From Candidatus Brocadia pituitae (GTDB lineage Bacteria; Planctomycetota; Brocadiia; Brocadiales; Brocadiaceae), in assembly GCA_017347445.1 (NCBI GenBank), contig AP021856.1, positions 2,364,613-2,428,612 on the forward strand: a DNA stretch of 64,000 nt, given 5' to 3'. Below, one piece after another: positions 7,139 through 52,213 of this stretch. Position 1 is the stretch's first letter. The number at the start of each line of letters is the position of its first letter. The notes beneath the pieces are model-generated. The model ran no database searches. It worked only from the letters and a program-made list of their open reading frames with translations, and was not told where the DNA came from. Both the position numbers and the translations under genes were made by a program.

Positions 7139-8176
7139 TTAGGGATAGAAGACTATATCTGAACGAGATTTGAAAGATGATATATTTATTCCAATCATCT
7201 CTGCTACGGAGGTGTTGAGGGTTATTTTCAATTTTTCCGGTTGTTTCGTACCTAACGATAGCATCGTTGGGTTGTGCAACAGTATTTGTGCCAGACTGGC
7301 TGCCTGTTGACCGGTGTATGCGTAATCCGGAGAAATAGAAACCAATGCCCCTGCCTTAACGATTGCATCTGAAGTGCAAAATGTAGGAATGCGTTCTTTT
7401 AAGGTTTTTTTAAAAATCATATCAAGTGAATCTCTTGTAATTACTGTACCATCAGGTATTATCCAGAAGGCATCGATATCATGGATAATATTTTTCAGTG
7501 CAGCTCCAACCTCTCTTTCCGATAGCACCTCTTTTTTCAAGAGATTGATTTCAAATCGTTTTGCCATGTTTATTGCATCAGAGATAATTTTGCCCGTCTT
7601 TCTTGGGTCATAAATGACTCCGACATTTTTCCGAAAACCAAGAATCTCCTTCAGAATGGTAAACTGATCTTCTAACGATGCCTCGGCAGAAATACCGGTG
7701 ACATTCGCTCCCCGCAAATTAAAACGTTCATGATTAATAACCATACAAAAGATAACCGGAATATCAGGAAATTGATCTTTTGCAACGGTTGCCGCGAGCA
7801 CACCTACCGCCAGAACAAGCTGAGGTTTTTGTTCGCTATTCCTGATGGCACGAATAATCCTTTTACTTTCATCTGCGTCTCCTTTCAGGTCATAAACTGC
7901 GTTAATAGCAATATTCTTTCCTTTGCATGCTTCTTCAAAACCCTTAATTGCTTCATTATAGGCGGCAATTTGCTGGCTTTGTATTACAGTGGCTATATTG
8001 CTATTAATCTTAGCCTGCCGATCAGATGTGATTTTTTGACTGGCAGCTACCATGGGAACGGTTAATAAGAAAGCAGTTGCAAATATGAGCATATACCAAC
8101 AGAACCTGGTGTCCTCATGATTTACTAAAAAACGACCTGAAATTTTTATTCCGTACTGCCGCTTATGATTCGCCAT
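7139..8176 (-). CDS. ABC-type substrate-binding protein (ABC_sub_bind family)
   Basis: Secreted periplasmic binding protein, 345 aa, of the family often described as TrpX/YtrF-like substrate-binding proteins. A hydrophobic export segment (MLIFATAFLLTVPMVAA) sits at residues 28-44, preceded by a long basic N-terminus, so the true start may be at residue 28. The two-lobed fold is indicated by AVGVLAATVAKDQFPDIPVIFC in the first lobe and VGVIYDPRKTGKI in the second. No permease or ATPase gene adjoins it. The next gene, 24 bases downstream, is a membrane histidine kinase with a periplasmic domain, so this protein more likely acts as the ligand-binding part of a signalling system than of a transporter. 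This is inference from gene order; the ligand cannot be read from the sequence. Confidence 0.8.
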   Translation of the reverse strand: MANHKRQYGIKISGRFLVNHEDTRFCWYMLIFATAFLLTVPMVAASQKITSDRQAKINSNIATVIQSQQIAAYNEAIKGFEEACKGKNIAINAVYDLKGDADESKRIIRAIRNSEQKPQLVLAVGVLAATVAKDQFPDIPVIFCMVINHERFNLRGANVTGISAEASLEDQFTILKEILGFRKNVGVIYDPRKTGKIISDAINMAKRFEINLLKKEVLSEREVGAALKNIIHDIDAFWIIPDGTVITRDSLDMIFKKTLKERIPTFCTSDAIVKAGALVSISPDYAYTGQQAASLAQILLHNPTMLSLGTKQPEKLKITLNTSVAEMIGINISSFKSRSDIVFYP

Positions 8177-8603
8177 TTATTTCATGAATACCCTTTTTAT
8201 GAAACAACACCCTCATCCCCGTCTCTCTTCCAGATTCTCAGAATACCCACGTAAGACGCATACCATCCGTCGCACAAATAGTATTGTACCAAGATGTTAG
8301 ATAAAAGTATAATAAGAGAAGTAAAACTCTGATACGATTTGTGTCTTTAGAGATTGACAACTAAAGACAGTATGGCAAAATAGATACCAAAGACAGATTT
8401 TCACCGGCATCTTAGAGGTAATTTATGGAAAACGGAAGGCAGGCAAACAATTTCGCACAAGTCCGACACGGACAAATGGAATTTGTCCGTGCCACCCTGT
8501 TACCAATTTAAAATTCACCTTTTATGGGCATCTTGAGTATTGCATAAACCTTGCTATCATACATAAACCCTTATTTCTTATTGGAAAAATGTGCCTTCTG
8601 CTT
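8177..8603. other. Intergenic region with one small hairpin
   Basis: No gene seen. An inverted repeat with 11-base perfect arms (CACGGACAAAT/ATTTGTCCGTG, spacer GGA) lies at 8467-8491. Closely related CACGGACAAA or TTTGTCCGTG words recur near 34443, 35770 and 47163, so this is part of a dispersed intergenic repeat rather than a gene-specific signal. Confidence 0.5.
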
Positions 8604-11459
8604 CTAATATCCTTCTCTTTCGGTCTTGACTACGCAAAGGTTATCGAGGTAAATTATGCCGGACATATCCGCATTCCCTGCCCAGGGAGCAAATTCGATC
8701 TGGGAGATGCGGCTGAAGTCAAGCTGTATCTTTGATCCATTCTGCCCTTCGGGATAACGCCAATCGTAAAAAACACCATCAAGCGGTATCGTAACCGTCT
8801 GCCACTTCCCATCAATGATTTTTAGCAGATTTTGCCCCTTCCAGTCATCATAGGCCTTATCCCCAACGGCAGGTTTGCCTTTATTGCCTAGTTCGTCGGT
8901 AATTACCATCAAAAGCCTTGTTACCTCACTATTTTTTGTGTCTGTTTTGATGTCAAATTGAAAGCTTGAATATCCGCTCCAGTTTGCCGTTGCATCATAC
9001 GTAATATCCTCTTGCCCATCCTCTCCTGAAATTACGGTTTTGTGGCCATAGGTACCAAATGGCATGGAAATCTTCCCATTGTTCGTGTCGCCATGCGCCC
9101 TGGAAAACTCAACCCTCATCGATGCCTGGCCGCCCATATCAGGGGTTTCGTGTGGATCTAAAAAAAACCGGTAAATGTACGGACTATTGCGGTCATCGGG
9201 AGTGCCGTGTCCATCCCACCATCCTACAGAATACGGCTCAGCCTCGTTCCAGGTATGAGCCAGCGAGCCGGTTTCAAAGTCGCAGATACTCTTCACCCCA
9301 TCTGATTCACGCCACGACACTTCTACCGTCACTGGCAATATCACCGTCCCTTCAGACGTAGCAACGGTCACCTGAGATCTATGCTTTCCATACGATAAGT
9401 TTGTACGATCCACCGTTAAATACACCCGATCCGTAATCTTTACCTCCCCCTCGGTATCACCAACGATGTCAAACCATTCAGCCTCTTTACGAATGACCCA
9501 GGTAGTTGTTCCCTGCCTTCCATTGGTAATGCTTATGGGTACGGTATACTTTTTTTCTCCATCTTCTTCATTCACACCCGTCTCATAGGGACCAAAATCG
9601 ACCCGCCCCGGATGTACCAGAAGGTATCCGTCCGGTTGCTCCGGAAACCCTTTTTCCGAAAGGACAAAAGCGTATATCGCCAGCGGTTGAAATTCGTAAA
9701 GGAACGTGCCGTTGATGAGATCAATGCCATGGGGGTCCATCTCCACCACACCGGGGTCATTCATACCGAACCGGAGCGCTTTTTTCACGTGCAGTTTTTG
9801 CTTTTCCTGGTCACCTAGTCCGTTTATCTGAACTTGTGCAATCTTTGGCGGTTGATGAGAGACAAAGCTCCCTGTGTCTGCATCATAGTCTCCTTTGTTT
9901 GCCACAAGGACCACGATGTCGCTTGACCGGCGGCAGGCATGGACGGTAAAGGCATCCCAGTTGCTCGACTCAGCAGAGACAACGTCACCTCTGAAATAAT
10001 GGCTCATCAGCCAGAATGCCCAATACTTCGGATTCGGTTCACCTCTTTCGTTAAACATAGCCTGCCCGGCACTATCAACCCCCTTCGTGTCTCTCGTGCC
10101 TGATTGATTGGGTTCACCCACATACCAGTTACAGGCAAATTCCACCCCCATCCTGGCAAAAAAACCGAGGAAATCCATCTGCCCGATCGCAGCGATCTGC
10201 GGCAGCGCCGGGTGTCCATTCCAGTAGAAATAGTCGTACTCAGAAAACGACAACCGGGTATGTGGATACCGTGTGTCAACCATATTTTGAAATCGCTTCA
10301 ACAATTTGGTTTCGATCCCGTAAGAACCGGTTTCCATGTCCCAGCTCAGAAAACCATCCTGCCACAATCCCCGAGGTTCCTGGATAGCATCCCTGTCCGT
10401 TGGCGCCCTGATGTAGCGATGCACGTCCATAAAATCAGCCACCCGTATTCCGTGTTTTTCCTCGTATGCCCTTGCCCGAATCAGGTACTGGTTCAGGACG
10501 CGGTTCTGATCCGCCTCCCACCCAGTCACATCAGGATCGTCACCACGATCAGGGAAGATGTCCTGATTCCACTGGTTTTCAATGTCAGACATCATCTTCC
10601 ATCCCTGATTATTTACCTTTGCATCGCTGTTTGCTTCAGTAACAGGACAAAACGGCGAATAATCGTTCGACCAGTACAACCACCAGTTTGCCGATGTAGG
10701 CCCAAAAACTTTTGCCTTTGGGTTTGTTTTTTTAATTCGATGAGCCAGAAACAAGAAGCGATCAAAATAATTATCATACGATGTGTCTTGATTAAGAACC
10801 TGATCACCATGGGCGGCATCATGATAAGGCGCAGGGTAATCACTTCGTTTCCACGCTATCCATGGCTCATTTCCTATTTCCCAGAAAATCACACGATCTC
10901 CTGCCATTGTAATCCAATGTTCAACTTCATCCGCCGTCTGCACGTGATCATAGTCAGGATCCTTGATAGTTTCTCCTTCGCCGGCCACGTGGCCATAACC
11001 CGGCACCTGCAACAAGGGCTCTGCCTTCACCGCCCGCCTGCACCACCGGACAAAACTTTCCCAGCTCATTGGTACATACTGGTTTTCACGTGCAATGACA
11101 TTAAAGATGCGGTTATTTTTGTAATTGTAACGTTCCATGTTCGTTGCGCCCAGGCGCACAACAGAAACCTTTGCATCCCTTAGTTTGGGTGCACACAAAT
11201 TCAGGTAATACCAGGGACACCAGTTTGCGATATTTACGCCGTAAAGATACTTGCTAATCGGCCTTCTGTCGCGCAATATGTCGATAACCAGGACAGCATC
11301 CACCGGCGAATCATCAAAATTAATGGATTTCACCGGCTGTCCAGGAGAACCGGGGACTTCGGCATCAGGTAGAGGAAAGAATGCTACCAGCAGAACAAGG
11401 GGAAGAAACGGTGTGATGCTCCTCTGAATTGAAGTTCGAAGATTCATCCATAAATGCAT
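8604..11459 (-). CDS. Secreted glycoside hydrolase, GH44-like, with C-terminal beta-sandwich domains
   Basis: Probable exported polysaccharide hydrolase, 951 aa. The N-terminus has a signal peptide (hydrophobic PFLPLVLLVAFFPLP). Residues about 60-600 form a TIM-barrel glycosidase: RLGATNMERYNY resembles the strand-1 region of family GH44, WEIGNEP carries the likely acid/base E198, and LSFSEYDYF the likely nucleophile E407. Residues about 620-720 look like a BACON-type domain, and about 730-945 like a carbohydrate-binding jelly-roll (FQFDIKTDT, WQTVTIPLDG, IYLDNLCVVKT). The start has AAGGA 8 bases upstream. It follows ParA by 29 bases, probably by chance. The family is inferred from motifs; GH51 or GH39 are alternatives, and the substrate (beta-glucan or own matrix sugar) is unknown. 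Such an enzyme is unexpected for an autotroph. Confidence 0.75.
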   Translation of the reverse strand: MHLWMNLRTSIQRSITPFLPLVLLVAFFPLPDAEVPGSPGQPVKSINFDDSPVDAVLVIDILRDRRPISKYLYGVNIANWCPWYYLNLCAPKLRDAKVSVVRLGATNMERYNYKNNRIFNVIARENQYVPMSWESFVRWCRRAVKAEPLLQVPGYGHVAGEGETIKDPDYDHVQTADEVEHWITMAGDRVIFWEIGNEPWIAWKRSDYPAPYHDAAHGDQVLNQDTSYDNYFDRFLFLAHRIKKTNPKAKVFGPTSANWWLYWSNDYSPFCPVTEANSDAKVNNQGWKMMSDIENQWNQDIFPDRGDDPDVTGWEADQNRVLNQYLIRARAYEEKHGIRVADFMDVHRYIRAPTDRDAIQEPRGLWQDGFLSWDMETGSYGIETKLLKRFQNMVDTRYPHTRLSFSEYDYFYWNGHPALPQIAAIGQMDFLGFFARMGVEFACNWYVGEPNQSGTRDTKGVDSAGQAMFNERGEPNPKYWAFWLMSHYFRGDVVSAESSNWDAFTVHACRRSSDIVVLVANKGDYDADTGSFVSHQPPKIAQVQINGLGDQEKQKLHVKKALRFGMNDPGVVEMDPHGIDLINGTFLYEFQPLAIYAFVLSEKGFPEQPDGYLLVHPGRVDFGPYETGVNEEDGEKKYTVPISITNGRQGTTTWVIRKEAEWFDIVGDTEGEVKITDRVYLTVDRTNLSYGKHRSQVTVATSEGTVILPVTVEVSWRESDGVKSICDFETGSLAHTWNEAEPYSVGWWDGHGTPDDRNSPYIYRFFLDPHETPDMGGQASMRVEFSRAHGDTNNGKISMPFGTYGHKTVISGEDGQEDITYDATANWSGYSSFQFDIKTDTKNSEVTRLLMVITDELGNKGKPAVGDKAYDDWKGQNLLKIIDGKWQTVTIPLDGVFYDWRYPEGQNGSKIQLDFSRISQIEFAPWAGNADMSGIIYLDNLCVVKTEREGY

Positions 11460-11488
11460 TCTGTGAATCCTTCCGTAATCATGATTTA

Positions 11489-12280
11489 TCAGGTAGGGGG
11501 ATGATGCAGTGATACTCTGTTGTTTTCCCTTTCCAACACCTCTTTCGCTAAATTTGTGTAATCTACGGCACCGGGACTGTCCGGTGCGTACAGGGTAATC
11601 GGCTTACCGGAAATGGGACATTCTGCCAGTCGGGTATTTTCCCTGATAATGGCATCAAATACCTTCTCTTTAAAACGCTCTTTGATCTGGTTATACACCT
11701 CGTTACTGAGATTCGTCCGGCCATCAAACCGGCAGGCAATGATCCCCGTTACCTCAAGATTGTGATTCAACCGTTCTTTCACCACTTGCACTGTATTCAT
11801 CAGGGTTACGAGACCATTTAAGGCCAACACCTTCGTCTCCAGAGGAATAAAGACCTCTTTGACAAAGGTTAGTGCATTAATTGTAATCAGGCCGAGAGAG
11901 GGCGGACAATCCAGCATGATGTAATCGTATTTACTGATAACGGGAGACAACCGCTTGCGCAAAATGAGGTCTCTCCCCTTTTCATGGGCAAGAATCCGTT
12001 CAACACCGGCCAATGCCACATTGGAAGGAGCCAGGGTCAGATTCTCAACGCAGGTCTTTGTAAGAATCTCTTCAAAATAGACCTCTTCCAAAAACACATT
12101 GTACATGGACCGCTCGAGATTATGGATGTCGAGACCTAGCCACGAGCTGAGATTTCCCTGAGGGTCCAGATCAACCAAAAGCACTTTTTTACCCATCTGG
12201 GCAAGGCAAGCACCAAGATTAACGGTGGTCGTTGTCTTTGCTACGCCCCCTTTTTGATTTGTAAGGGCAATACTTCGCAT
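11489..12280 (-). CDS. parA: ParA/Soj family chromosome-partitioning ATPase
   Basis: Cytoplasmic ATPase, 263 aa. The deviant Walker A box KGGVAKTT sits at residues 10-17 with the signature lysine, followed by VLLVDLDPQGN (Walker A') and IMLDCPPSLG (Walker B). Length and motif spacing match Soj-type ParA rather than MinD, because there is no C-terminal amphipathic membrane helix. No parB lies next to it and no parS site (TGTTTCACGTGAAACA) was seen near it, so its exact cargo is open. The start codon lies 1 base after the stop of the KtrA gene, so it is translated from the potassium-uptake transcript or from a promoter inside that gene. Confidence 0.88.
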   Translation of the reverse strand: MRSIALTNQKGGVAKTTTTVNLGACLAQMGKKVLLVDLDPQGNLSSWLGLDIHNLERSMYNVFLEEVYFEEILTKTCVENLTLAPSNVALAGVERILAHEKGRDLILRKRLSPVISKYDYIMLDCPPSLGLITINALTFVKEVFIPLETKVLALNGLVTLMNTVQVVKERLNHNLEVTGIIACRFDGRTNLSNEVYNQIKERFKEKVFDAIIRENTRLAECPISGKPITLYAPDSPGAVDYTNLAKEVLERENNRVSLHHPPT

Positions 12281-43007: not shown

Positions 43008-44990
43008 CTATAGGCTTTGACCAGTGGTATAGAGCGACCCAAGCCGCCCACGCTCTTCATCGGTAATCCCCAGGCTGCCGTCGTTATCTGCTGCATCATC
43101 GCCATCGGTGTCTATGTCTGCCCTGCCGCCGGTGATGCTTACGATCTTGATGATACGTCCGTTATCGGAGGGTATCCATTGCCCTTTTCCCCGGTCGTAA
43201 TACCCTGACGGCACCGAGATACCCACAGGGAAATTAAGAAAATTGTCCACGTAAAAGTACAGGGGCTGGTTGAACTGTACATCGGTAGCACCGGCGGATA
43301 ACGCCTCGTCCACACTCATCTCTACACAGTAGGTGTAACCGACCTGGGGCGGTAGTGGTGCAGGCATATTTTCCGGCCCATTCTCTCCCACCGTGTATTC
43401 CGTTGCCCTGACGTTCAGGGAGGTTAATGGTTGCGTCGTGCCGTCAGGGAGCACCATCTCGGCGCTCGTTCCCGCCGGGAAGAGTATCGTGGCGGTGCGT
43501 ATGCCGTCGTCATCTTCCACCGTACTACCTTGCGCCACCTGCATTTCGACGCTTGCAGAAAGGTCAATGGTGGCGACCTGCGGGTCTACCGGGATCATAA
43601 CCACGTCCGGCAGCCATGCATAATCCTCCCACGGGGCATCCACCTGGCGTTGGGCCGGTAAATACCCCTCTTTCTTATAGTTGACGGTAAGTAATCCACC
43701 GCCGTTGACGGCCATATCAAACATCCCATCCGCACGGCTCAGGGTCTGGCCAAATTCAGGGTGGCTCAGGATGGTCATGGTAACACCCCTGAGCGGCTGA
43801 TTTTCTTTATCCAAAACCTTGCCACGCAACACGGCGCACCGGTATGCCTTGATGGTATCCGTACCCACACCGGTCTGGATGGGATTTTCACCCGTGTAAA
43901 GAAACGCCGTGGCAGAGCCCATTGTGGTTGCAATGGTTAAATCCAGTTCCGGCGCCACATCAGCGGGATCGGGTGGCAGAGTTGGTGTTGGCGTGTGCGT
44001 TGGGGTTACCTCTGGTGTAGGCGTTGGCGAAGGTGACGGCGTTGGTAGCACAGTGGGTGTTGGTGTTGGTGTAGCGGTCGGTGTTGGTAACAGAGTCGGC
44101 GTTGAAGTAGGAGATGGTGCTCCTGTCGGTGTCGGTTCAACGGTTGGACTCGGTGTCGAATTCGGGGTCGGTGTTGGGGTGTCGACCGGCGTAGGGCTTG
44201 GCAACGGAGTATTACATGGCGTGGGACTTGGCTCCGCAATTTCCTCAACCACGGCGTTTGCGTCCACAAGGAAACTAAACTTCTTCCCCTTGTGCTTTAC
44301 CCTGAAGGTAAGAACGGTCGTTGTCTCGCCAGGATGCAAAACCACGTCAGCGCCAAAGGTATTAGAAAGCGATTCGGGAGTTGGCAATGTAATGATCTCT
44401 ATCTGCCCCAGAGTCGTCTCCTCATTCACCGTGAAACAAAAAGGCTGGTGAAAGGTCTTGTCGTTTGTTACGTTCTTGAATGATGCCCTGATTTCCAAAG
44501 AGTTATTGCTTTGAAGTTCATAGGCATAGCTCGCCTGCCACAGTTCCGCATCTTCACTACATCCGGACTCTGTATCCTCTGTACAGGGTACCAGCATCCG
44601 CGCCTGACCTTCAGGCAGACACTGGTTCTCGATTGTACCTGCATCTAAGGAAGAAGCGGATCGGATGGCGGATTTGCTGACGCTTGTGCGTCTTTTCTTT
44701 ACTGCCTTGACCGTTCTCTTTGTTGGGTCTATGGTAAAACCAAAAGAAGGGGCAGTAACGGCGGACGGAGCGGCAGATATCCGTTGTTTCTTTATCGCAT
44801 GCGCTAGTATTTTTTGGGGATTACCTTGAAATCCCCGATCACTTTCCCCCGAAACTCGCTTTCCATAGCCGGTTGCCCTTGCGGTATTTGCCTGGACAAA
44901 AGGAAGGAAAAACATCGAATAAAAAAGGGATATGATAAGCAGGATAGAAACGTATTTTACATTTTCACGGACATACCAGTTGCGGAGCAT
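43008..44990 (-). CDS. N-terminal fragment of the broken RHS gene (secreted, Pro/Thr-linker)
   Basis: 660 codons ending at the amber stop. The ATG at 44990 has GGGGGA upstream and begins a signal peptide ([22 protein letters not shown]); an in-frame upstream start is less likely. About residues 260-355 are a Pro/Thr/Ser linker of PTPTPT type, visible in the DNA as a GT-rich run at 43970-44225. Next are a carboxypeptidase-regulatory-like beta-sandwich ([20 protein letters not shown]) and a segment resembling the teneurin/RHS N-terminal region ([34 protein letters not shown]). It could still be made and secreted as a truncated protein lacking the propeller and RHS shell. Confidence 0.75.
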
Positions 44991-45089
44991 GAAGGTTCCC
45001 CCTTTCTGACGTTTGTGGATAGGTGTGCAATGCCCACCCTTTCGATTCCATTTCTGAAAACAAAAAAAGCCTGTCTTTTTACGGCTCAA

Positions 45090-45452: not shown

Positions 45453-45803
45453 CTACCTTATTCTATATCCCTGCTTAGATAATACGACAAGCCTTCCCTT
45501 GAATGTATAGGCATGGTAGTTCTTAAAGAGGTTATTTACGGCAAAAAAGATGTCTTCTAACAAAGGCGGGTGAATCCGGATAAGGACGATACCGAATAAA
45601 TTCTGTGGAGGATACCTGAGAATATCACCAAAATGTTTATCAAAGGTGATGATGGTTCTTTCTTCTTTTATTGCCAAATCAACAATCGTATCATCTGTTG
45701 CCCCTGGAAGACCGTATTTCTGAATAGCTTTAACATCGTGTCCGGATTTGAGAAGATGCGATATAAGAGGGGGAAATATATTCTCGTCCGCAAGGAATCT
45801 CAA
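45453..45803 (-). CDS. DUF5615 PIN-like toxin (VapC45-like)
   Basis: 116 aa of the DUF5615 family of PIN-like ribonucleases. Acidic metal ligands are visible: FLADENIFP (D5/E6), GATDDTIVDLA, and TIITFDKHFGDI. It starts with TTG, and the sequence CATTGAG overlaps the place where the antitoxin frame would end (TGA) if the antitoxin were full length. The partner is the DUF433 gene directly upstream. The toxin frame is intact. Confidence 0.85.
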   Translation of the reverse strand: MRFLADENIFPPLISHLLKSGHDVKAIQKYGLPGATDDTIVDLAIKEERTIITFDKHFGDILRYPPQNLFGIVLIRIHPPLLEDIFFAVNNLFKNYHAYTFKGRLVVLSKQGYRIR

Positions 45804-45859
45804 TGTTGTGTTGCCTCTTCAAATGGAATATATTCTTGATCCTTAATAAGTGAAGCGGC

Positions 45860-46039
45860 TTAATGCAAACATTGTTTTATATCGTCCTTTGTTATCTGCG
45901 GGTAATAATCCTTTATAATGTCATCAGGTGTTAAACCAGCTTCGAGAAGTTCGATAATGATATATACCATAATCCTCGTCCCTTTTATACATGGTTGACC
46001 ATGACATATATCCGGATTCACTTCTATACGGTTGTCCAT
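45860..46039 (-). pseudogene. DUF433 antitoxin with premature stop codon
   Basis: 59 codons: it begins MDNRIEVNPDICHGQPCIKG, with the DUF433 core CHGQPCIKGTRIMV and AGLTPDDIIKDYYPQIT, and stops at TAA (45860-45862) after QCLH. Beyond the stop the same frame continues for 19 codons (AASLIKDQEYIPFEEATQH) to a TGA that overlaps the TTG start of the toxin. DUF433 proteins usually have LxYAA at this place, so TAA probably replaced a tyrosine codon. The missing part is the C-terminal toxin-binding tail. A truncated antitoxin with an intact toxin should be unstable unless the toxin is silent or the stop is read through. Confidence 0.8.
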
Positions 46040-46432
46040 AAAAGATATTTTCTTTCTTGTTTAAAAAAGATGCGGAGAAATGCTTTTTTCAAAAATATAG
46101 CATAGAAAAAGGCAAAAAACCAAGAGATTTTTTAGGGAACAGAAGACGTTAGGGGGTAAATCTTTTAGATAATCTGTGAAAGAGCTTGTCGCCTTATCAA
46201 AATAATATTGGTGGATCCGGCGTTACAAGACGAACGCCTTGATCCACCCTACCTGTTGTGATGATTTTACATCGCGGGGAAAACATGGTACACTTCCCAT
46301 CTTTCCATTCAACATGAAAATTTCGATGCTTTCAAATGCCTTGGTTCAAGCTGAAATCCCGAACCATCAATGAGGTACGAAACCCAACAGATAAAGTTCT
46401 TCGGCTTCGCTTCAAAAAGAAAGGTAATTGAG
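46040..46432. other. Intergenic region with a hairpin
   Basis: GGTGGATCCGGCGTT (46210-46224) pairs with AACGCCTTGATCCACC (46233-46248), a hairpin of the REP-like kind. No gene seen. Confidence 0.45.
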
Positions 46433-46671
46433 TTACGCTATTAATCCGAGCCTTTTGAGGTTGTCTTCATTCCACTGTGTCCCATTGAGAAAATTTTTGA
46501 GTGTGCCAGGAGGAAGGGTATCTTTCGCGTGATGATAATGGATAACAACGCGTCTACCATCAGTACGCCGATAAACTCGCTGGCTGCCTTTACGTCTTGT
46601 ATACTGGAATCCATCTTTTTCGACCACCCTGATGAGTTCTCTAACGGAAGTGTTTTAAGCCTGTGAATCAT
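46433..46671 (-). pseudogene. hicA: hicA toxin gene with frameshift
   Basis: The ATG at 46671 overlaps the stop of hicB (ATGA), the normal coupling, and reads MIHRLKTLPL. The HicA body then continues in another frame: RELIRVVEKDGF, RKGSQRVYRR and the catalytic-histidine region VIHYHHAKDTLPPGTL, to a stop at 46433. The two parts fit together if one base was lost around 46643. The downstream piece alone (64 codons from a GTG at 46627) lacks the first helix. HicA normally binds and cuts mRNA; this copy should be inactive. Confidence 0.82.
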
Positions 46672-46907
46672 AGAGAAATTGCTATGGCAGGTTCATTTAT
46701 AACTTCTATGGCATCTGATAGCGTTGGCAAGTTCTCACCGGCGGCTAACATGTCTTCAATGTATATTTCAGCGGCATCTTTTATATTTTCCAGGGCTTCT
46801 TGTTTGGAATATCCCCAACTGGAACAACCAGGCAGGACCGGAATTGAAGCGCTCCATCGGCCATCCTCTTCTTCGGTTAAAGTAACTTTTAAAACCAATG
46901 TCTTCAT
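46668..46907 (-). CDS. hicB: HicB-family antitoxin
   Basis: 79 aa. Typical HicB: LTEEEDGRWSASIPVLPGCSSWGYSKQEALENIKDAAEIYIEDM, the degenerate RNase H fold that covers HicA. AGGAGG precedes two adjacent ATG codons (46910 and 46907); I chose the second for spacing. The gene lies upstream of its toxin on the minus strand (the hicBA order). The frame is intact while its toxin is broken. There is no obvious C-terminal DNA-binding domain. Confidence 0.88.
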   Translation of the reverse strand: MKTLVLKVTLTEEEDGRWSASIPVLPGCSSWGYSKQEALENIKDAAEIYIEDMLAAGENLPTLSDAIEVINEPAIAISL

Positions 46908-47297
46908 CATAAACCTCCTGTTTAAAAAATTTAAATTCCTCCTTATTTGGCAATTTTATTGTGAATTGTTTTATAAATCAAGATATATCCGTTAAACTTA
47001 CGTAGGTAAAAAATACGCAGGTTTAGACACAGATAAACAAACAGGCAACGATTTTTTCGTTCACCGCAGAGGACGCTGAGACCGCAGAGAAATTAACGTG
47101 GGATGGAACCACAGAGGGCACTGAGACAGAGTGCAGACAGGTGGGAGGCATGGACAAACTTGTTTGTCCGTGTGCCATTGCCTTATTAACAATTAAGGGG
47201 TTAAGGAAAGACAACAGATGGCAGACGACTGTAACTATCTGTGGACTCTGTAACTAAATTTTGATAGTATTCAATTTTAAGAAAGGAGGTGAGAAAA
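46908..47297. other. Intergenic region before the RiPP cluster
   Basis: Contains ACCGCAGAGGACGCTGAG-type words (47078-47095) and TTTGTCCGTG (47161-47170), both common dispersed repeats. The promoter of the peptide cluster should lie after 47200, but I cannot point to a clear one. Confidence 0.4.
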
Positions 47298-47480
47298 ATG
47301 TCAGAAAAGATTTCAGCAGGAGACATTGGTCAGGCGGAACATGGTTTACCTGCTTCCCACACCAGGAAGCCTTTTGCGGAGCCCAAATTAACCTTCATTG
47401 AGCCAAAGCTTACAAAGCATGGCGATGCAACCAGGATTACGCATCAGAGCAATGGGTTTTTTAGTGCATTTGTACCGTAG
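47298..47480 (+). CDS. RiPP precursor peptide with lasso-type leader motif
   Basis: 60 aa. The ATG at 47298 has the strong ribosome site AAAGGAGG 7 bases upstream. Residues 33-48 (FIEPKLTKHGDATRIT) match the lasso leader signature YxxPxLxxxGxxxxxT exactly, with F for Y; a second partial copy lies just before (FAEPKLT, 26-32). In lasso peptides the conserved Thr is the second-last leader residue, so cleavage is expected after H49, giving the core QSNGFFSAFVP. That core has no Asp or Glu and cannot form a lasso ring. The peptide lies 17 bases upstream of an HPr-kinase-like gene, followed by radical SAM, PqqD-like and B2 protease genes. I infer that it is the substrate of this set. Confidence 0.75.
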   Translation: MSEKISAGDIGQAEHGLPASHTRKPFAEPKLTFIEPKLTKHGDATRITHQSNGFFSAFVP

Positions 47481-47497
47481 TCAAAATAAGGGATCTC

Positions 47498-48523
47498 ATG
47501 AAAAAAGAGGACGAGAAGTTGGGAGGATGGGAAGCTGAGATGGCCGAAACAGGGGTTGATTTCTACTCTTTGTACGAATTGATCATTGAGGTTCGATGGG
47601 AAGGGGAAGGAATCGAGGATGAGCTTGAACAGTTCTTCTCTTCCTTTCCCTTTACCCAGGTAGGAGGGAGCGGGCATGCTGCTGATGTTACCTTACATTT
47701 TGCAGCTACGGATACCCCGCTAAAAACCCCTTATTCACAGGTAACGCCTCTTTCTTTCTATGATTTATCGATTTATGAAATGGGGGGGTCTGTTTATATT
47801 TCTGACGGGTTATCCAGTTTTTATGCACAGCCTCAGGCAGGTATGGGGCAGATAACTCTCTATGGCAGGGGTAAGGAATCGCATCGTGTATCGAAGCACA
47901 ACCTTTTTCTCGTTGGTCTCTTTCATCTCTTGCCTTACCAAAATCTCTATCACCTCCATGCTGCCGGACTCGTGAGAGATGAGAAAGGGTATTTGTTTAT
48001 TGGTGAATCAGGGAGCGGCAAGTCAAGTCTTTCCCTGAGTCTCGTCCGTCAGGGCTGGCGCTACCTTTCAGACGATGTGCTTTTGTTTCGACCATCAATG
48101 AACGGTGTTGAGGCGCTGTCCTTTCGCAAGCAGTTTTTTCTGGATCCAGCTTTGTCCCGTCATTACCACGAGATATCTGCCCACCTTGAGGAAACTCCTT
48201 ATGGTGACGATACGAAACAGCTTTTCGATGTGGAATCAGTCTATCCGGACCAATTCAGTTCAAACTGTTTCCCCAGGATATTAATTTTTACCCGTATTGT
48301 GCCTCATGCTGAAAGCGCACTGGTTCCTATAGACCGGGCATCCGTCATGGTCAGACTGATGCAACAGAGCGCCACCCTGTTCTTTAACCGTCAGGTAGTC
48401 AGGGCACATGCGGATGCTTTAAAACGGCTTCTGTATCAGACCACGCATTATCAATTGTTTGCCGGCGTTGATTTACGGGAAGATCCAGCAAAAATTTCTG
48501 AGATCTTAGGATGTCATGAATGA
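47498..48523 (+). CDS. HPr-kinase-like P-loop protein of RiPP cluster
   Basis: 341 aa. The C-terminal half is the HPr kinase/phosphorylase fold: YHLHAAGLV, the P-loop GESGSGKSSLSLS and the SDDVLLFR motif, whose aspartates serve catalysis. The N-terminal 150 residues are less clear. Proteins of this type occur in lasso-peptide clusters, where some phosphorylate the C-terminal serine of the precursor (paeninodin type). The core peptide here has serines (S51, S56) that could be targets. It starts 17 bases after the peptide gene and overlaps the radical SAM gene by 8 bases (ATGAATGA). The role in this pathway is inferred. Confidence 0.82.
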   Translation: MKKEDEKLGGWEAEMAETGVDFYSLYELIIEVRWEGEGIEDELEQFFSSFPFTQVGGSGHAADVTLHFAATDTPLKTPYSQVTPLSFYDLSIYEMGGSVYISDGLSSFYAQPQAGMGQITLYGRGKESHRVSKHNLFLVGLFHLLPYQNLYHLHAAGLVRDEKGYLFIGESGSGKSSLSLSLVRQGWRYLSDDVLLFRPSMNGVEALSFRKQFFLDPALSRHYHEISAHLEETPYGDDTKQLFDVESVYPDQFSSNCFPRILIFTRIVPHAESALVPIDRASVMVRLMQQSATLFFNRQVVRAHADALKRLLYQTTHYQLFAGVDLREDPAKISEILGCHE

Positions 48524-49511
48524 CGTTCACATCATTTTTGAACTTACCAATGACTGCAATCTGCGCTGCGCGCACTGCCTGAGGGACAAATCGTCTCCGC
48601 ATGGATACCTGTCTTTAGAGGTCATCGAACAGGTTTTAAGGGAAATGCAATCTTTCCATCGCATCAACATGGTCTCTTTCACCGGCGGTGAACCTACCTT
48701 GCACCCACAATTCCCGGAGATCATTAGGATAGTCGCCCACGGAGGGCACCGTTTTGGTTTTGTGACCAATGGCTGGCATTTTTCTGGCACCTACCATGCG
48801 CTCTTACCGTACAAGTCTCTGCTGAAAGCGGTCACTTTCAGTCTGGATGGCGCGCGGGAAGAGACGCACGACGCCCTTCGCGGAAGAGGCTCATACCGCA
48901 AACTCATGCAGGCCATGAGTATTTGTGTGGTAAAGGACATTCCCTTTACCCTGAACACAACCGTTACCGCTCATAACTGCGATGAGTTACAGGAAATGGC
49001 AGAGTTTGCGACGAAACTGGGAAGCCAGGGGCTGAGGTTCGGTCATCTCTTACCCACTCCTTTGACGGCAACGCAGAGGCTGGATGTATCACCTGATAAA
49101 CGAAGAGAGGTGGAAAATACCGTCTCACGGCTTCAATGCGTCTTTCCTTTACGAATTTCCATGGCTCCAAGGGACTATATTGCACCGAATATCCCATGCG
49201 CCCCGTTGCGGATGGAGGAATTCAATATCGACTGGCGCGGCAATCTCACCCTGTGCTGTAATTTGTCCGGGCATGGAGATGGTGTGGGAAACGGAGATAT
49301 CATAGGCAATTTGCATGAGATGAGTTTTTCTGAGGCTTATAAACGCCTGGTTAAATTGAATAGGAAGTTTTTTCATGATAAGAGCCGGGACATGAGAGAT
49401 GAGGACGTAGATTCCTTTCCTTGCTGGTATTGCCTGAATCATTTTAAGAAAGTAGATTGGCTTAAGTATTATCTTGAAAATCCGTGGTCAAGCCTTGTCG
49501 GGACGAAATAG
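48516..49511 (+). CDS. Radical SAM enzyme with C-terminal cysteine-rich (SPASM/twitch-like) region
   Basis: 331 aa. The cluster-binding motif CNLRCAHC (C14, C18, C21) is near the N-terminus, followed by the SAM-binding VSFTGGEPTLHP and the strand motif FSLDGAREETHDALRG. Near the C-terminus are further cysteines (IPCAPL, LTLCCNLSG, FPCWYCLNHF) in the style of SPASM or twitch domains that bind auxiliary Fe-S clusters, as in peptide-modifying enzymes. The gene overlaps the kinase gene and is followed by PqqD-like and B2 genes. Location strongly suggests the precursor at 47298 is the substrate. The bond formed cannot be read from the sequence. Confidence 0.85.
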   Translation: MNDVHIIFELTNDCNLRCAHCLRDKSSPHGYLSLEVIEQVLREMQSFHRINMVSFTGGEPTLHPQFPEIIRIVAHGGHRFGFVTNGWHFSGTYHALLPYKSLLKAVTFSLDGAREETHDALRGRGSYRKLMQAMSICVVKDIPFTLNTTVTAHNCDELQEMAEFATKLGSQGLRFGHLLPTPLTATQRLDVSPDKRREVENTVSRLQCVFPLRISMAPRDYIAPNIPCAPLRMEEFNIDWRGNLTLCCNLSGHGDGVGNGDIIGNLHEMSFSEAYKRLVKLNRKFFHDKSRDMRDEDVDSFPCWYCLNHFKKVDWLKYYLENPWSSLVGTK

Positions 49512-49707
49512 TATGCGTTGTAAAGTATAGATCGTGAACTATAAATCAGGCTGCCTTCGGTAGCAACACAAATTACCCCTCCCTTGACGGGAGGGGCGAG
49601 GGGAGGGTGATACGCTATTTCCCTTCACCCCCACCCAACCTCCCCCATCGAGGGGGAAGAACTCATTGTTTGAAATTTCTTGTACATTAAATGGGCAGAG
49701 GGAATCG
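49512..49707. repeat. Spacer with GC-rich hairpins inside the RiPP cluster
   Basis: CCCCTCCCTTGACGGGAGGGG (about 49576-49596) is a hairpin related to the one at 28011; a second run, CCTCCCCCATCGAGGGGGA, follows at 49650-49668. This 196-base spacer splits the cluster into two parts. Confidence 0.45.
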
Positions 49708-49992
49708 ATGATCCAGTTAAACCAGCATATTACACCGGATCCAGAGGTTATTGTCACGGAACTGGAGGGCAAAGAGGCCGTTCTTCTCCATCTGGGCACA
49801 AGGATGTATTTTACCTTAAACGAGACAGGGCTGCGGATCTGGCAGATGTTGAGTAGCGGTCTTACGCCCGGAGAGATAAGCGAACGGCTTTTAAAAGAAT
49901 TCGATATTTCCCCTGAGAAGGCCAGGGAAAGTGCACTCAATCTCATTCATGAACTTATTCAAGAGAAATTAGTAAAGATTTCTGATGGGTAG
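49708..49992 (+). CDS. PqqD-like RiPP recognition element (lasso B1-like)
   Basis: 94 aa. The PqqD fold is recognisable: EGKEAVLLHLGTRMYFTLNETGLRIWQML, then SPEKARESALNLIHELIQEKLV. Such winged-helix proteins grip the leader peptide through the YxxP region and hand it to the enzymes. I chose the ATG at 49708 with GAGGG 5 bases upstream over an upstream start at 49666. It overlaps the B2 gene by 8 bases, so the two are coupled, as lasso B1 and B2 are. Confidence 0.87.
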   Translation: MIQLNQHITPDPEVIVTELEGKEAVLLHLGTRMYFTLNETGLRIWQMLSSGLTPGEISERLLKEFDISPEKARESALNLIHELIQEKLVKISDG

Positions 49993-50482
49993 TCAAACAG
50001 GGATCATGCAGAAATTCAGGGTAAATTTCACCTCTTTCCGGGAGGTGTGGCTTTTTATCCAAATCTTCTTCCTGGTTACTCTATCACCGGTAGCGCTCAG
50101 GCTATTCTCCATTCCAAGGCTTATGAGGATATGTACCCCCCGGTATTTGAAGGTTTATGAAGGCAGGAACCGGGAGAATTTAAGAGCAAAGGCCGTGAAG
50201 TTCACGGACTATATCCTGGGCTGGAATGCCTTGAGATGTAGAAATACCTGTCTCAAACGCGCGCTGGTGCTCTATTATTTTTTGAGGAAATGGGGGATGG
50301 ATGTGCGGGTATGCTTTGGGGTAAGATATGCGGCGCACAAGAGGCTTGACGGCCATGCCTGGCTGCTTTACCAGGGCGACATTTTTCTGGAAAGAAACAC
50401 CGAACGGACAAAGGCCTACACGCAGACGTATTGTTTTCCTGATACGATGGAGCAAATTAAACAAAATTATCACCATGGCTGA
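49985..50482 (+). CDS. Lasso-type B2 leader peptidase (transglutaminase-like)
   Basis: 165 aa, Transglut_core3 family. The catalytic cysteine is in CRNTCLKRALVLYYFLR and the histidine in LDGHAWLLYQGDIFLE, with an aspartate nearby. An N-terminal hydrophobic stretch (VWLFIQIFFLVTLSPVALRLF) may attach it to the membrane, as in other B2 proteins. The start may be at 49985 (ATG overlapping the B1 stop) or at 50006, where AGGGATC precedes the ATG. B2 proteins cut lasso leaders after the residue following the conserved Thr. Confidence 0.88.
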   Translation: MGSQTGIMQKFRVNFTSFREVWLFIQIFFLVTLSPVALRLFSIPRLMRICTPRYLKVYEGRNRENLRAKAVKFTDYILGWNALRCRNTCLKRALVLYYFLRKWGMDVRVCFGVRYAAHKRLDGHAWLLYQGDIFLERNTERTKAYTQTYCFPDTMEQIKQNYHHG

Positions 50483-50914
50483 TCGTATAAATTAGTTATT
50501 AAGTGGGGCTTCTCGGTCCCCCGCTGTCGGGGGTAAGGGGGTGGAACAAACACATGAAAGCCAACTCAAAAAGCAATTATGCCTATAACTGCAAATTACA
50601 GCCCCTTGCAAATAAGGTGCGTGGTTGAAGAAAGAGAAAAGTCCACCCCCTTCACCCCCGCCAGCGGGGGACAAACAAAAATCCCCCTTTGAAAAGGGGG
50701 ATTCAGTGGGTTGTCTGGTATGCTATGATACAACGTTGAAATTCCAATACATAAATTAGGTCTTCAGCGACTTTCCCCCCCTGTTTCCCCCCGTAAACTG
50801 GGGGATTATGGGGGGTAATTGAAATTCCTAAACCTTAATTGGCCTTCGGCAACTTTTTCAATGTAGAGAGACGAGGCTCGTCGCTCTGCAACCGCGGCTT
50901 TGAAATTCGAGAAC
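50483..50914. other. Intergenic spacer full of G/C-run repeats
   Basis: Hairpins built from CCCCC/GGGGG runs lie around 50515-50540, 50640-50665, 50680-50702 (AATCCCCCTTT-GA-AAAGGGGGATT) and 50778-50815. They resemble dispersed intergenic repeats. No gene seen. Confidence 0.4.
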
Positions 50915-52213
50915 ATGAACATATCACACAAAAACAGACTCTTACTCCATTGCCTTCAGGCAGGTATCTCCGGGGATAGAGAAGATACCATTCGGGACAT
51001 CATAAGCCCTGCCTTAAACTGGGAAGAGGTCTTAGCGTCTGCTTCTCACCATGATGTTGCACCATTACTGTATCGCAGTCTAACGAATATCGGCAAGGGC
51101 AATGGCATCCCCCAGGAAGTCATGGACCGGCTCAGGACCGCCTATCTCGATAATTTAGCCAGAAATATGTACCTGTATGCCGAACTCAGGAGGATTTTGG
51201 AGACGCTTTATAGAAAAGACGTACAAGTGATTTTTCTCAAGGGCGCTGCCCTGGCGAAAATGGTTTACGGGGATATTGGTTTAAGACCGATGAGTGACGT
51301 TGATATCTTAGTCAGAAGGGGAGATTTATCAAAGGCAGTGGAATTGTTATTTCACATGGGGTATGGTTTATACAATGATCAGGAGGCGCAGAACCGAAAT
51401 ATTAATGTGAAAGAACTGATTAACACCTATAATCGTCATGTACCTGCTTTGAGCCATCCAAGAGGAATACAAAAACTGGATATACATTGGACAATACCAG
51501 ACAGCCCATTCACTATAGCGGGTTTATGGGAAAGGGCAAAAACGATAAAAATTGACAAGGCAGATGTCCTGGTACTCTCCTTAGAAGACCTTCTGCTGCA
51601 TCTGTCTTTACATACTTCCGTTCATCACAAATTTCATGATCACGGGCTAAAACAACTCTATGATATTGCGATAACGATTCATCAGTATCTTAAGGAAATC
51701 GATTGGGATCAACTTCGACTTCGTGCTTATGAGTGGAGAACAGGGAAATACCTGTATCTTACCTTACGCCTTTCCCGGGAGATTCTCGGAGCAATTGTGC
51801 CAGAAAGAATTTTATCTGCCCTTAAACCAAAGGCATTCAATGAAAAATTACTTATGGAAGCCAAAAGGCGTATCCTTTTTCAGAATGGAGGGAAATCCGA
51901 TCAGAAATCTTCTTTTGAAGACATTCCTCATCTTGATAAATTTCATCCCGACAACAACCTTTTGAAAAGAGCCTCGTTTATTTTCAAGAGAATATTTATT
52001 CCTCCTGCAGAACTGGCATCTCTCTACTCGCTGCCGGCATCTTCCAGGCATATTTACCTTTATTATTTTCTCCGATTTATCTCACAACTACACCGTAACA
52101 TCCCCAGATATCTTCCTTTTTTTCTTTACCTGTTAAGACAGAGAAAAGAATCTCCCTACATTCATAATCTGGACTTATGGCTAAATACCCAGGACTTTAA
52201 CACAAGGTTGTGA
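50915..52213 (+). CDS. Nucleotidyltransferase family protein (NTP_transf_5) of RiPP cluster
   Basis: 432 aa. The fold is marked by VIFLKGAALAKMVYGDIGLRPMSDVDILV, where GDIGLRPMSDVDI carries the metal-binding D-x-D pair. Members of this family accompany lasso and related peptide clusters and are thought to modify the peptide or a carrier; their reaction is not settled. I chose the ATG at 50915; a TTG at 50900 is in frame. The C-terminal region (about residues 330-430) is basic and hydrophobic. It is 430 bases from the B2 gene, so it could have its own promoter, but the direction and family suggest it is the last gene of the cluster. Confidence 0.82.
   Translation: MNISHKNRLLLHCLQAGISGDREDTIRDIISPALNWEEVLASASHHDVAPLLYRSLTNIGKGNGIPQEVMDRLRTAYLDNLARNMYLYAELRRILETLYRKDVQVIFLKGAALAKMVYGDIGLRPMSDVDILVRRGDLSKAVELLFHMGYGLYNDQEAQNRNINVKELINTYNRHVPALSHPRGIQKLDIHWTIPDSPFTIAGLWERAKTIKIDKADVLVLSLEDLLLHLSLHTSVHHKFHDHGLKQLYDIAITIHQYLKEIDWDQLRLRAYEWRTGKYLYLTLRLSREILGAIVPERILSALKPKAFNEKLLMEAKRRILFQNGGKSDQKSSFEDIPHLDKFHPDNNLLKRASFIFKRIFIPPAELASLYSLPASSRHIYLYYFLRFISQLHRNIPRYLPFFLYLLRQRKESPYIHNLDLWLNTQDFNTRL

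Follow-up and report, generated by a model that had tools for sequence, protein, structure and literature searches.

A probable cyclase-free peptide pathway pairing a lasso-type leader with a radical SAM enzyme in Candidatus Brocadia pituitae

What does a peptide cluster with lasso-type leader processing produce when the lasso cyclase is missing? The question is raised by six genes in a 64,000-nucleotide stretch of Candidatus Brocadia pituitae (contig AP021856.1, positions 2,364,613 to 2,428,612), here called the window. They encode a precursor peptide, an HprK-like kinase, a radical S-adenosylmethionine (SAM) enzyme, a PqqD-like protein (B1), a B2 leader peptidase and a nucleotidyltransferase (Table 1). 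B1 corresponds to the recognition element (RRE) of ribosomally synthesized and post-translationally modified peptides (RiPPs). An earlier note, made from the sequence alone, proposed a leader-guided pathway without a cyclase. The genes, the leader register and the synteny support this proposal: the cluster probably encodes a cyclase-free, leader-guided RiPP-type pathway whose product is not a lasso. Among relatives, co-occurrence links it to secreted surface proteins and so does, in one family, a motif shared between their tails and the peptide core.

Gene content, synteny and the missing cyclase

Translation and family searches recovered all six genes listed in the earlier note, and the tight spacing it described was also found: 17 nt separate the precursor and kinase genes, whereas the kinase and radical SAM genes overlap by 8 nt, as do those of B1 and B2. 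Gaps of 196 nt between the radical SAM gene and B1 and of 432 nt between B2 and the nucleotidyltransferase are occupied by GC-rich palindromic intergenic repeats (49540-49650 and 50500-50830, respectively). In comparison with the relative at locus L039 (L and G numbers are our locus and genome labels), each of the six genes presents a dN/dS of 0.09-0.27, which indicates purifying selection. Given these values and a gene order kept in two phyla, the cluster is more than a chance grouping.

The kinase matches Hpr_kinase_C (1.8e-5) and HprK_rel_A (3e-14), both under the curated cut-offs. Its predicted structure matches HprK and PEP carboxykinase, and its His, Walker A and Asp-Asp motifs are intact, with H154, G169-K175 and D192-D193 invariant in the alignment. 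The radical SAM enzyme matches Radical_SAM (1.4e-23) and, weakly, SPASM. Its CX3CX2C motif, GGE motif and Twitch cysteines are all intact (C14, C18, C21, C228, C247, C248, C303 and C306 are invariant in the alignment), and it thus presents the combination of CX3CX2C with C-terminal auxiliary-cluster cysteines that characterizes SPASM/Twitch proteins. Its model is nearest to BlsE, SkfB, DesII and SuiB; viperin, anSME and PqqE rank high as well. B1 matches PqqD (5.9e-17) and, below cut-off, the lasso PqqD models; B2 matches lasso_biosyn_B2 above the curated NCBIfam cut-off, with its Cys and His conserved in the alignment; and the nucleotidyltransferase matches NTP_transf_5 (PF14907, 2e-60).

Within the anaerobic ammonium-oxidizing (anammox) order, radical SAM orthologues are present in 10 of 62 genomes, at 11 sites with 54-100% identity, one genome holding a second, decayed copy. 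In each of these genomes a precursor lies 5' of the radical SAM gene and the kinase, B1, B2 and nucleotidyltransferase are also present, barring contig breaks (in G001 and G023, parts of the cassette are split onto other contigs). Precursor orthologues occur in 12 of 61 genomes, and a twelfth radical SAM match in the order, at 27% identity, is without the cassette. No cassette members were found in the phylum beyond the anammox order (392 genomes searched). One scan of genome contigs yielded 23 acidobacterial loci with a radical SAM enzyme of 34-40% identity, where the kinase lies immediately 5' and B1, the nucleotidyltransferase and B2 lie within a few kb. Of the 98 genomes of the acidobacterial class, 22 have a radical SAM match; those with E near 1e-86 belong to a separate paralogue, which forms its own clade and is without the cassette.

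Over the resulting 37 loci, which cover the anammox order and Acidobacteriota, the radical SAM gene is accompanied by the kinase in 35, B1 in 34, the nucleotidyltransferase in 31 and B2 in 21. The shared order is an optional STN-like gene, an optional gene for a protein with the C-terminal domain (CTD) described below, then precursor, kinase, radical SAM enzyme and B1. The neighbourhood pattern that the earlier note had anticipated, with a lasso-register precursor and B1 but no cyclase, is what was observed. The possibility that the radical SAM gene is an unrelated neighbour was rejected, given the synteny in two phyla and the separate clade of the unlinked acidobacterial paralogue.

Regarding the cyclase, the family search found no Asn_synthase match in the window's cluster, where the radical SAM gene stands in its place, as the note had stated. 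In the window's own genome, assembled as one contig of 4.08 Mb, the Asn_synthase-type proteins comprise LarE-like and QueC-like ones together with a single AsnB-like protein, encoded about 240 kb away from the cluster beside a glycosyltransferase-like gene. In the complete relative genome G033, which holds the cassette, the sole Asn_synthase match is a 277-aa frame, and the matches listed for other cassette genomes lie on other contigs or distant from the cluster. A cyclase just outside the cluster in relatives, which the note had named as a refuting finding, was seen neither at the 37 loci nor in G033. A cyclase acting in trans was rejected on the basis of G033 and the Asn_synthase maps.

Two lasso-type clusters were observed in the order. 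L084 (G042) has a 606-aa Asn_synthase protein, an ABC transporter, a nucleotidyltransferase, B1, a kinase and a precursor with a Tyr-type leader; L085 (G051) has B1, B2, an ABC transporter and a nucleotidyltransferase at a contig end. Since the order also has genuine lasso-type clusters, the radical SAM cassette is not simply a broken one.

Table 1. Features of the cluster in the window, with the basis of each assignment.
Feature	Position	Strand	Basis or remark
Spacer 5' of precursor	47022..47278	+	77% identity to L169 8290-8564
Shine-Dalgarno of precursor gene, strong	47283..47289 (about)	+	direct reading
Precursor peptide gene, 60 aa	47298..47480 (ATG 47298, stop 47478-47480)	+	MSEKISAGDIGQAEHGLPASHTRKPFAEPKLTFIEPKLTKHGDATRITHQSNGFFSAFVP
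Leader motif FIEPKLTKHGDATRIT, residues 33-48	47394..47441	+	lasso register, Phe replacing Tyr
Predicted core QSNGFFSAFVP, residues 50-60	47445..47477	+	predicted by lasso leader rule
HprK-like kinase, 341 aa	47498..48523	+	family matches, HprK/PEPCK fold model, invariant motifs
Radical SAM enzyme, Twitch-type C-terminal cysteines, 331 aa, no fused RRE	48516..49511	+	family matches
PqqD-like RRE (B1), 94 aa from ATG	49708..49992	+	family matches
B2 transglutaminase-like leader peptidase, 165 aa	49985..50482	+	above NCBIfam cut-off; alignment
PF14907 nucleotidyltransferase, 432 aa from ATG	50915..52213	+	family match

Precursor, core and candidate chemistry

The leader segment FIEPKLTKHGDATRIT fits the pattern YxxPxLxxxGxxxxxT at all fixed positions but one, where Phe replaces Tyr, and the FxxPxL segment is duplicated in the precursor (FAEPKL and FIEPKL). 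The description of this leader as lasso-type thus stands for the register and for Thr at -2, but not for its aromatic segment, which is F-x-E-P rather than Y/W-x-x-P. All 15 anammox precursors and 19/25 of the acidobacterial ones follow the register F-x-x-P-x-aliphatic-x9-Thr, from which the Chloracidobacterium type departs. Acidobacterial precursors are open reading frames (ORFs) of about 50-90 residues just 5' of the kinase at nearly every locus, with the motifs K(K/R)xF(V/I/L)EPx... and ...EATTFFQ....

Cores were predicted by the lasso rule, under which the core begins two residues after Thr. Anammox cores hold GFFGxFxP or close variants, and acidobacterial cores begin with FFQ or FLQ. Cys is absent from the window precursor and from the clean cores of relatives. 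None of the 15 anammox cores has Asp or Glu at positions 7-9 (a few acidobacterial cores have one), and these cores are often too short for a lasso. Given the lack of core Cys, and of an acid at positions 7-9 in the anammox cores, thioether and lasso chemistry are excluded. The Phe residues of the core may be the target of the radical SAM enzyme, judging from sequence.

In the proposed pathway, B1 would bind the F-x-E-P-x-L leader and present the precursor to the kinase and the radical SAM enzyme. The kinase would phosphorylate Ser or Thr of the short core and the Twitch-type enzyme would act on its Phe-rich sequence, while B2 would cut the leader off two residues beyond the conserved Thr, and a nucleotidyl or sugar group would be added onto the phosphate by the nucleotidyltransferase. 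The product would be a short peptide, linear or Phe-crosslinked. Among the outcomes of the radical step, a Phe-centred crosslink is tentatively considered the most likely, followed by an outcome of some other kind, with epimerisation the least likely. In terms of the aromatic-x-x crosslink motif that radical SAM cyclophane (triceptide) peptides have at a fixed place, the acidobacterial FFQ would fit, whereas the anammox FFG would not for its first Phe. The loss of 2 Da suggested in the earlier note as a readout is just one possible result, since epimerisation gives no mass change. An extra invariant Cys of the enzyme, C137, is a possible hydrogen-atom donor; as an epimerase signature it was rejected, because the paralogue without a linked cassette carries it too.

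If this pathway is correct, the cassette defines a RiPP-type family that keeps lasso-type leader recognition without lasso cyclisation and joins it to radical chemistry on a core rich in Phe and free of Cys. RRE-Finder (PMC7470986) counted about 300 lasso-type RREs beside radical SAM enzymes and put them aside as false positives; the cassette may explain part of these.

Surface proteins with a shared C-terminal domain

A further layer associated with the cassette in relatives, the STN-like and surface-protein genes, was overlooked in the earlier note and has probably been lost in the window. At 12 of 15 anammox precursor loci, a gene for a large protein, mostly with a signal peptide, lies directly 5' on the same strand. 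The main domains of these proteins vary (beta-helix, VWA/PKD, NHL, CBM9, M36 protease), yet most share the CTD (alignment A3). A genome search found the CTD in 10 of the 62 genomes of the order, all with the cassette, which corresponds to 10/11 cassette genomes against 0/51 others; G017 was counted among the former, having the precursor, B2 and nucleotidyltransferase and no radical SAM gene assembled. Two genomes hold 15 and 21 CTD copies, hence CTD proteins also occur far from the cassette. The large proteins of the acidobacterial clusters present a homologous CTD (hhalign 96%, E 4.8e-9), and a small STN-like protein lies beside the CTD gene or the precursor in both phyla (cross-phylum hhalign 93%). 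Neither CTD nor STN-like matches were found in control stretches of 113 kb and 96 kb.

In the window's family, many CTD proteins terminate in a basic linker followed by FFGRFRP, FFGRFYP or FFRRFHP, a tail that echoes the GFFGxFxP of the peptide core and is limited to this one family of the order. A pattern search for FFGRF(R/Y)P yielded 11 sites, all in six cassette genomes and some off-cluster; the remaining matches read FFGSF and were treated as noise. At L039, for instance, the CTD protein carries ATRISGNGFFGRFRP and the peptide ATKITGNNGFFSIFKP. Tail and core codons differ within one genome (G023), hence the likeness lies at the protein level. FFGxFxP before a stop was rejected as a general signal, given that the loose pattern returned mostly cluster sites and short noise ORFs.

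The arrangement resembles PEP-CTERM/exosortase systems, in that a short common C-terminal tail is found on otherwise unrelated secreted proteins only in genomes with a dedicated cassette. However, the alignment of CTD tails shows the basic linker and FFGRFRP rather than the motif, hydrophobic helix and basic end of PEP-CTERM, no exosortase was seen, and the tail is confined to one family.

The relation between peptide and CTD proteins may most readily be one of docking or of a modification that both receive. A more doubtful extension is that the cassette, of lasso ancestry, now serves a surface-protein system as its processing branch, with the same radical SAM enzyme and kinase acting on both the peptide and the FFGRFRP tails. 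If true, a RiPP-type modification would be placed on, or would dock with, surface proteins of anammox-order bacteria and Acidobacteriota. The CTD link and the core-like tail make a surface role of paeninodin- or LPP-like HprK/RRE/nucleotidyltransferase cassettes (LPPs are considered below) directly testable, and anammox enrichments, which form biofilms and are in wide wastewater-treatment use, would serve as a test bed.

Multiple precursor copies per genome, with a constant leader and a variable core, were observed at L043 (1979-2282 and 10296-10484), L093 (10222-10449) and L094 (9110-9286). Some of these extra copies adjoin CTD genes yet sit apart from the modifying enzymes.

In the window's own genome, neither a CTD match at 1e-5 nor an FFGxFxP tail was found. 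However, the spacer 5' of the precursor has a homologue in G017 that starts 9 nt past the stop codon of a CTD gene (L169 4766-8281), hence the window spacer probably marks a lost CTD gene. The simplest reading suggests that the window strain lost its CTD gene and retained an intact peptide pathway. A CTD candidate at 43008-45089 was not accepted (best E 0.038). Tail variants in the own genome were also rejected: FFxxFxP-stop gave 14 matches against 5 in the control, and among the 12 loci read it is in frame only in the precursor and in a pair of short ORFs judged spurious. Between this candidate and the cluster, past the spacer, toxin-antitoxin-like genes occupy 45453-46910 (a 116-aa MRFLADENIF-type protein, a DUF433-like partner, and HicA- and HicB-like genes), part of which is 94% identical to sequence 3' of a CTD gene in G017.

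Alternatives, related systems and further loci

Several points weigh against the proposed pathway and its surface link. The Ser preferred by the kinase sits at no fixed core place, and some cores have Thr only. The window's cluster showed no transporter gene. The association of the CTD with the cassette has a Fisher p = 1e-10 that is not corrected for phylogeny. Neither STN-like genes nor CTD proteins were found near the window's cluster, which means the surface link is not essential there or the pathway is a remnant. Finally, all enzyme reactions, the modified residues and the interaction between peptide and surface protein are inferred.

The closest published relatives of the cassette are the linear polyphosphorylated peptides (LPPs; PMC13381572, 2026) of Bacillota, whose clusters have an RRE, an HprK-like kinase and an NTP-transferase and no cyclase. 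A discrete RRE, an aromatic-x-x-P leader, the two enzymes, the lack of a macrolactam cyclase and the cell-surface loci are common to both. On the other hand, LPP clusters have an SpI-like signal peptidase, an MsbA-like transporter and a YxxPxVLxHQxIxFETxxS leader, with no radical SAM enzyme described, whereas here a B2 peptidase, an F-x-E-P leader and a radical SAM enzyme are found, in the anammox order and Acidobacteriota. The earlier note's statement that the combination has no named class must hence be weighed against the LPP family. The exact combination was not described in the literature searched on radical SAM enzymes with lasso/HprK/PqqD/nucleotidyltransferase genes, PF13471 with radical SAM enzymes, anammox RiPPs, radical SAM enzymes with PqqD and exosortase, and anammox surface proteins.

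The cassette could accordingly be read as a remodelled LPP-type phosphopeptide pathway, in which the kinase and nucleotidyltransferase provide the main chemistry and the radical SAM enzyme fine-tunes the core, e.g., by Phe epimerisation. The Twitch domain is compatible with epimerases, and YydG, a radical SAM epimerase, is among the profile matches of the alignment. Nevertheless, we consider this unlikely, given that the radical SAM enzyme is the most constant partner of the cassette, that the core is Phe-rich and not Ser-rich, and that C137 provides no epimerase signature. Another locus of the anammox order that bears on this alternative, in its favour, is L088 (G052:C80:50500-69500, 8042-11585), with a Tyr-type leader peptide, YEKPELEKKGSLKDIT, B1, B2, a kinase and a nucleotidyltransferase, and neither radical SAM enzyme nor cyclase; from its gene content, it may represent a linear, LPP-like system that employs B2 and lies outside Bacillota.

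A pathway to a redox cofactor derived from a peptide, of the PQQ or mycofactocin type, is very unlikely. A radical SAM enzyme, a PqqD-like protein and a small peptide do occur together, and the top NCBIfam match of the enzyme is the mycofactocin maturase, yet its score is far under the cut-off (88.7 vs 265 bits), Tyr is absent from the window core where a C-terminal or Glu/Tyr core would characterize these pathways, core ends are variable, and the distribution in the order is patchy. A degraded lasso cluster that lost its cyclase in the window strain is the least probable alternative: its leader, B1, B2, kinase and nucleotidyltransferase would fit, as would the existence of L084, but no cyclase was found at any of the 37 loci or in G033, the anammox cores cannot supply the ring acid and one radical SAM clade occupies the same place in two phyla.

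Returning to the cyclase-free radical pathway, the kinase and nucleotidyltransferase have a precedent in paeninodin. The likeness to such lasso systems comprises B1, B2, both enzymes and the leader Thr at -2; here, however, the Asn_synthase-type cyclase and, in anammox cores, the ring acid are absent, the leader has Phe instead of Trp/Tyr, and a radical SAM enzyme is added. Pseudomycoidin (PMC8498205) and the LPPs (PMC13381572) are also precedents, the former with the same likenesses and differences.

In comparison with SkfB, SuiB, PqqE and YydG, the window enzyme shares the radical SAM core and C-terminal cysteines, yet identity is low (13-22%) and it is without the fused RRE that SkfB and SuiB carry. 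Sactipeptide- or ranthipeptide-type thioethers are ruled out, given the Cys-free core. The SynChlorMet cassette likewise combines HprK-like, PqqD-like and radical SAM/SPASM proteins. However, all matches to ScmC, ScmD, ScmE and ScmF (NCBIfam) are far below cut-off, and the present cassette has one radical SAM enzyme, along with B2, a nucleotidyltransferase and a lasso-type leader.

Some variation was observed among the loci. L044 (G031:C1:47000-65500) holds a second radical SAM gene and a truncated B1 beside transposition genes, a decaying duplicate. Three clusters of the order, from other families, carry a GNAT acetyltransferase gene between the kinase (or precursor) and the radical SAM gene (L046 8216-8758, L047 5409-5969, L048 10381-10908), which possibly encodes a further tailoring enzyme. 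A membrane-protein gene recurs 3' of B1 in acidobacterial loci (L036 11343-12775, L122 6752-8226, L019, L021, L022, L033 and L037), its product beginning like M.RG.V.R.VP...A.G..R; an HTTM-like identity was rejected, with no Pfam match in the two checked. Lastly, at L114-L117 and L123-L126, also in Acidobacteriota, a sister clade of the radical SAM enzyme has no precursor, kinase or B1 nearby and presents recurrent RNA polymerase sigma-like and zinc-finger-like neighbours.

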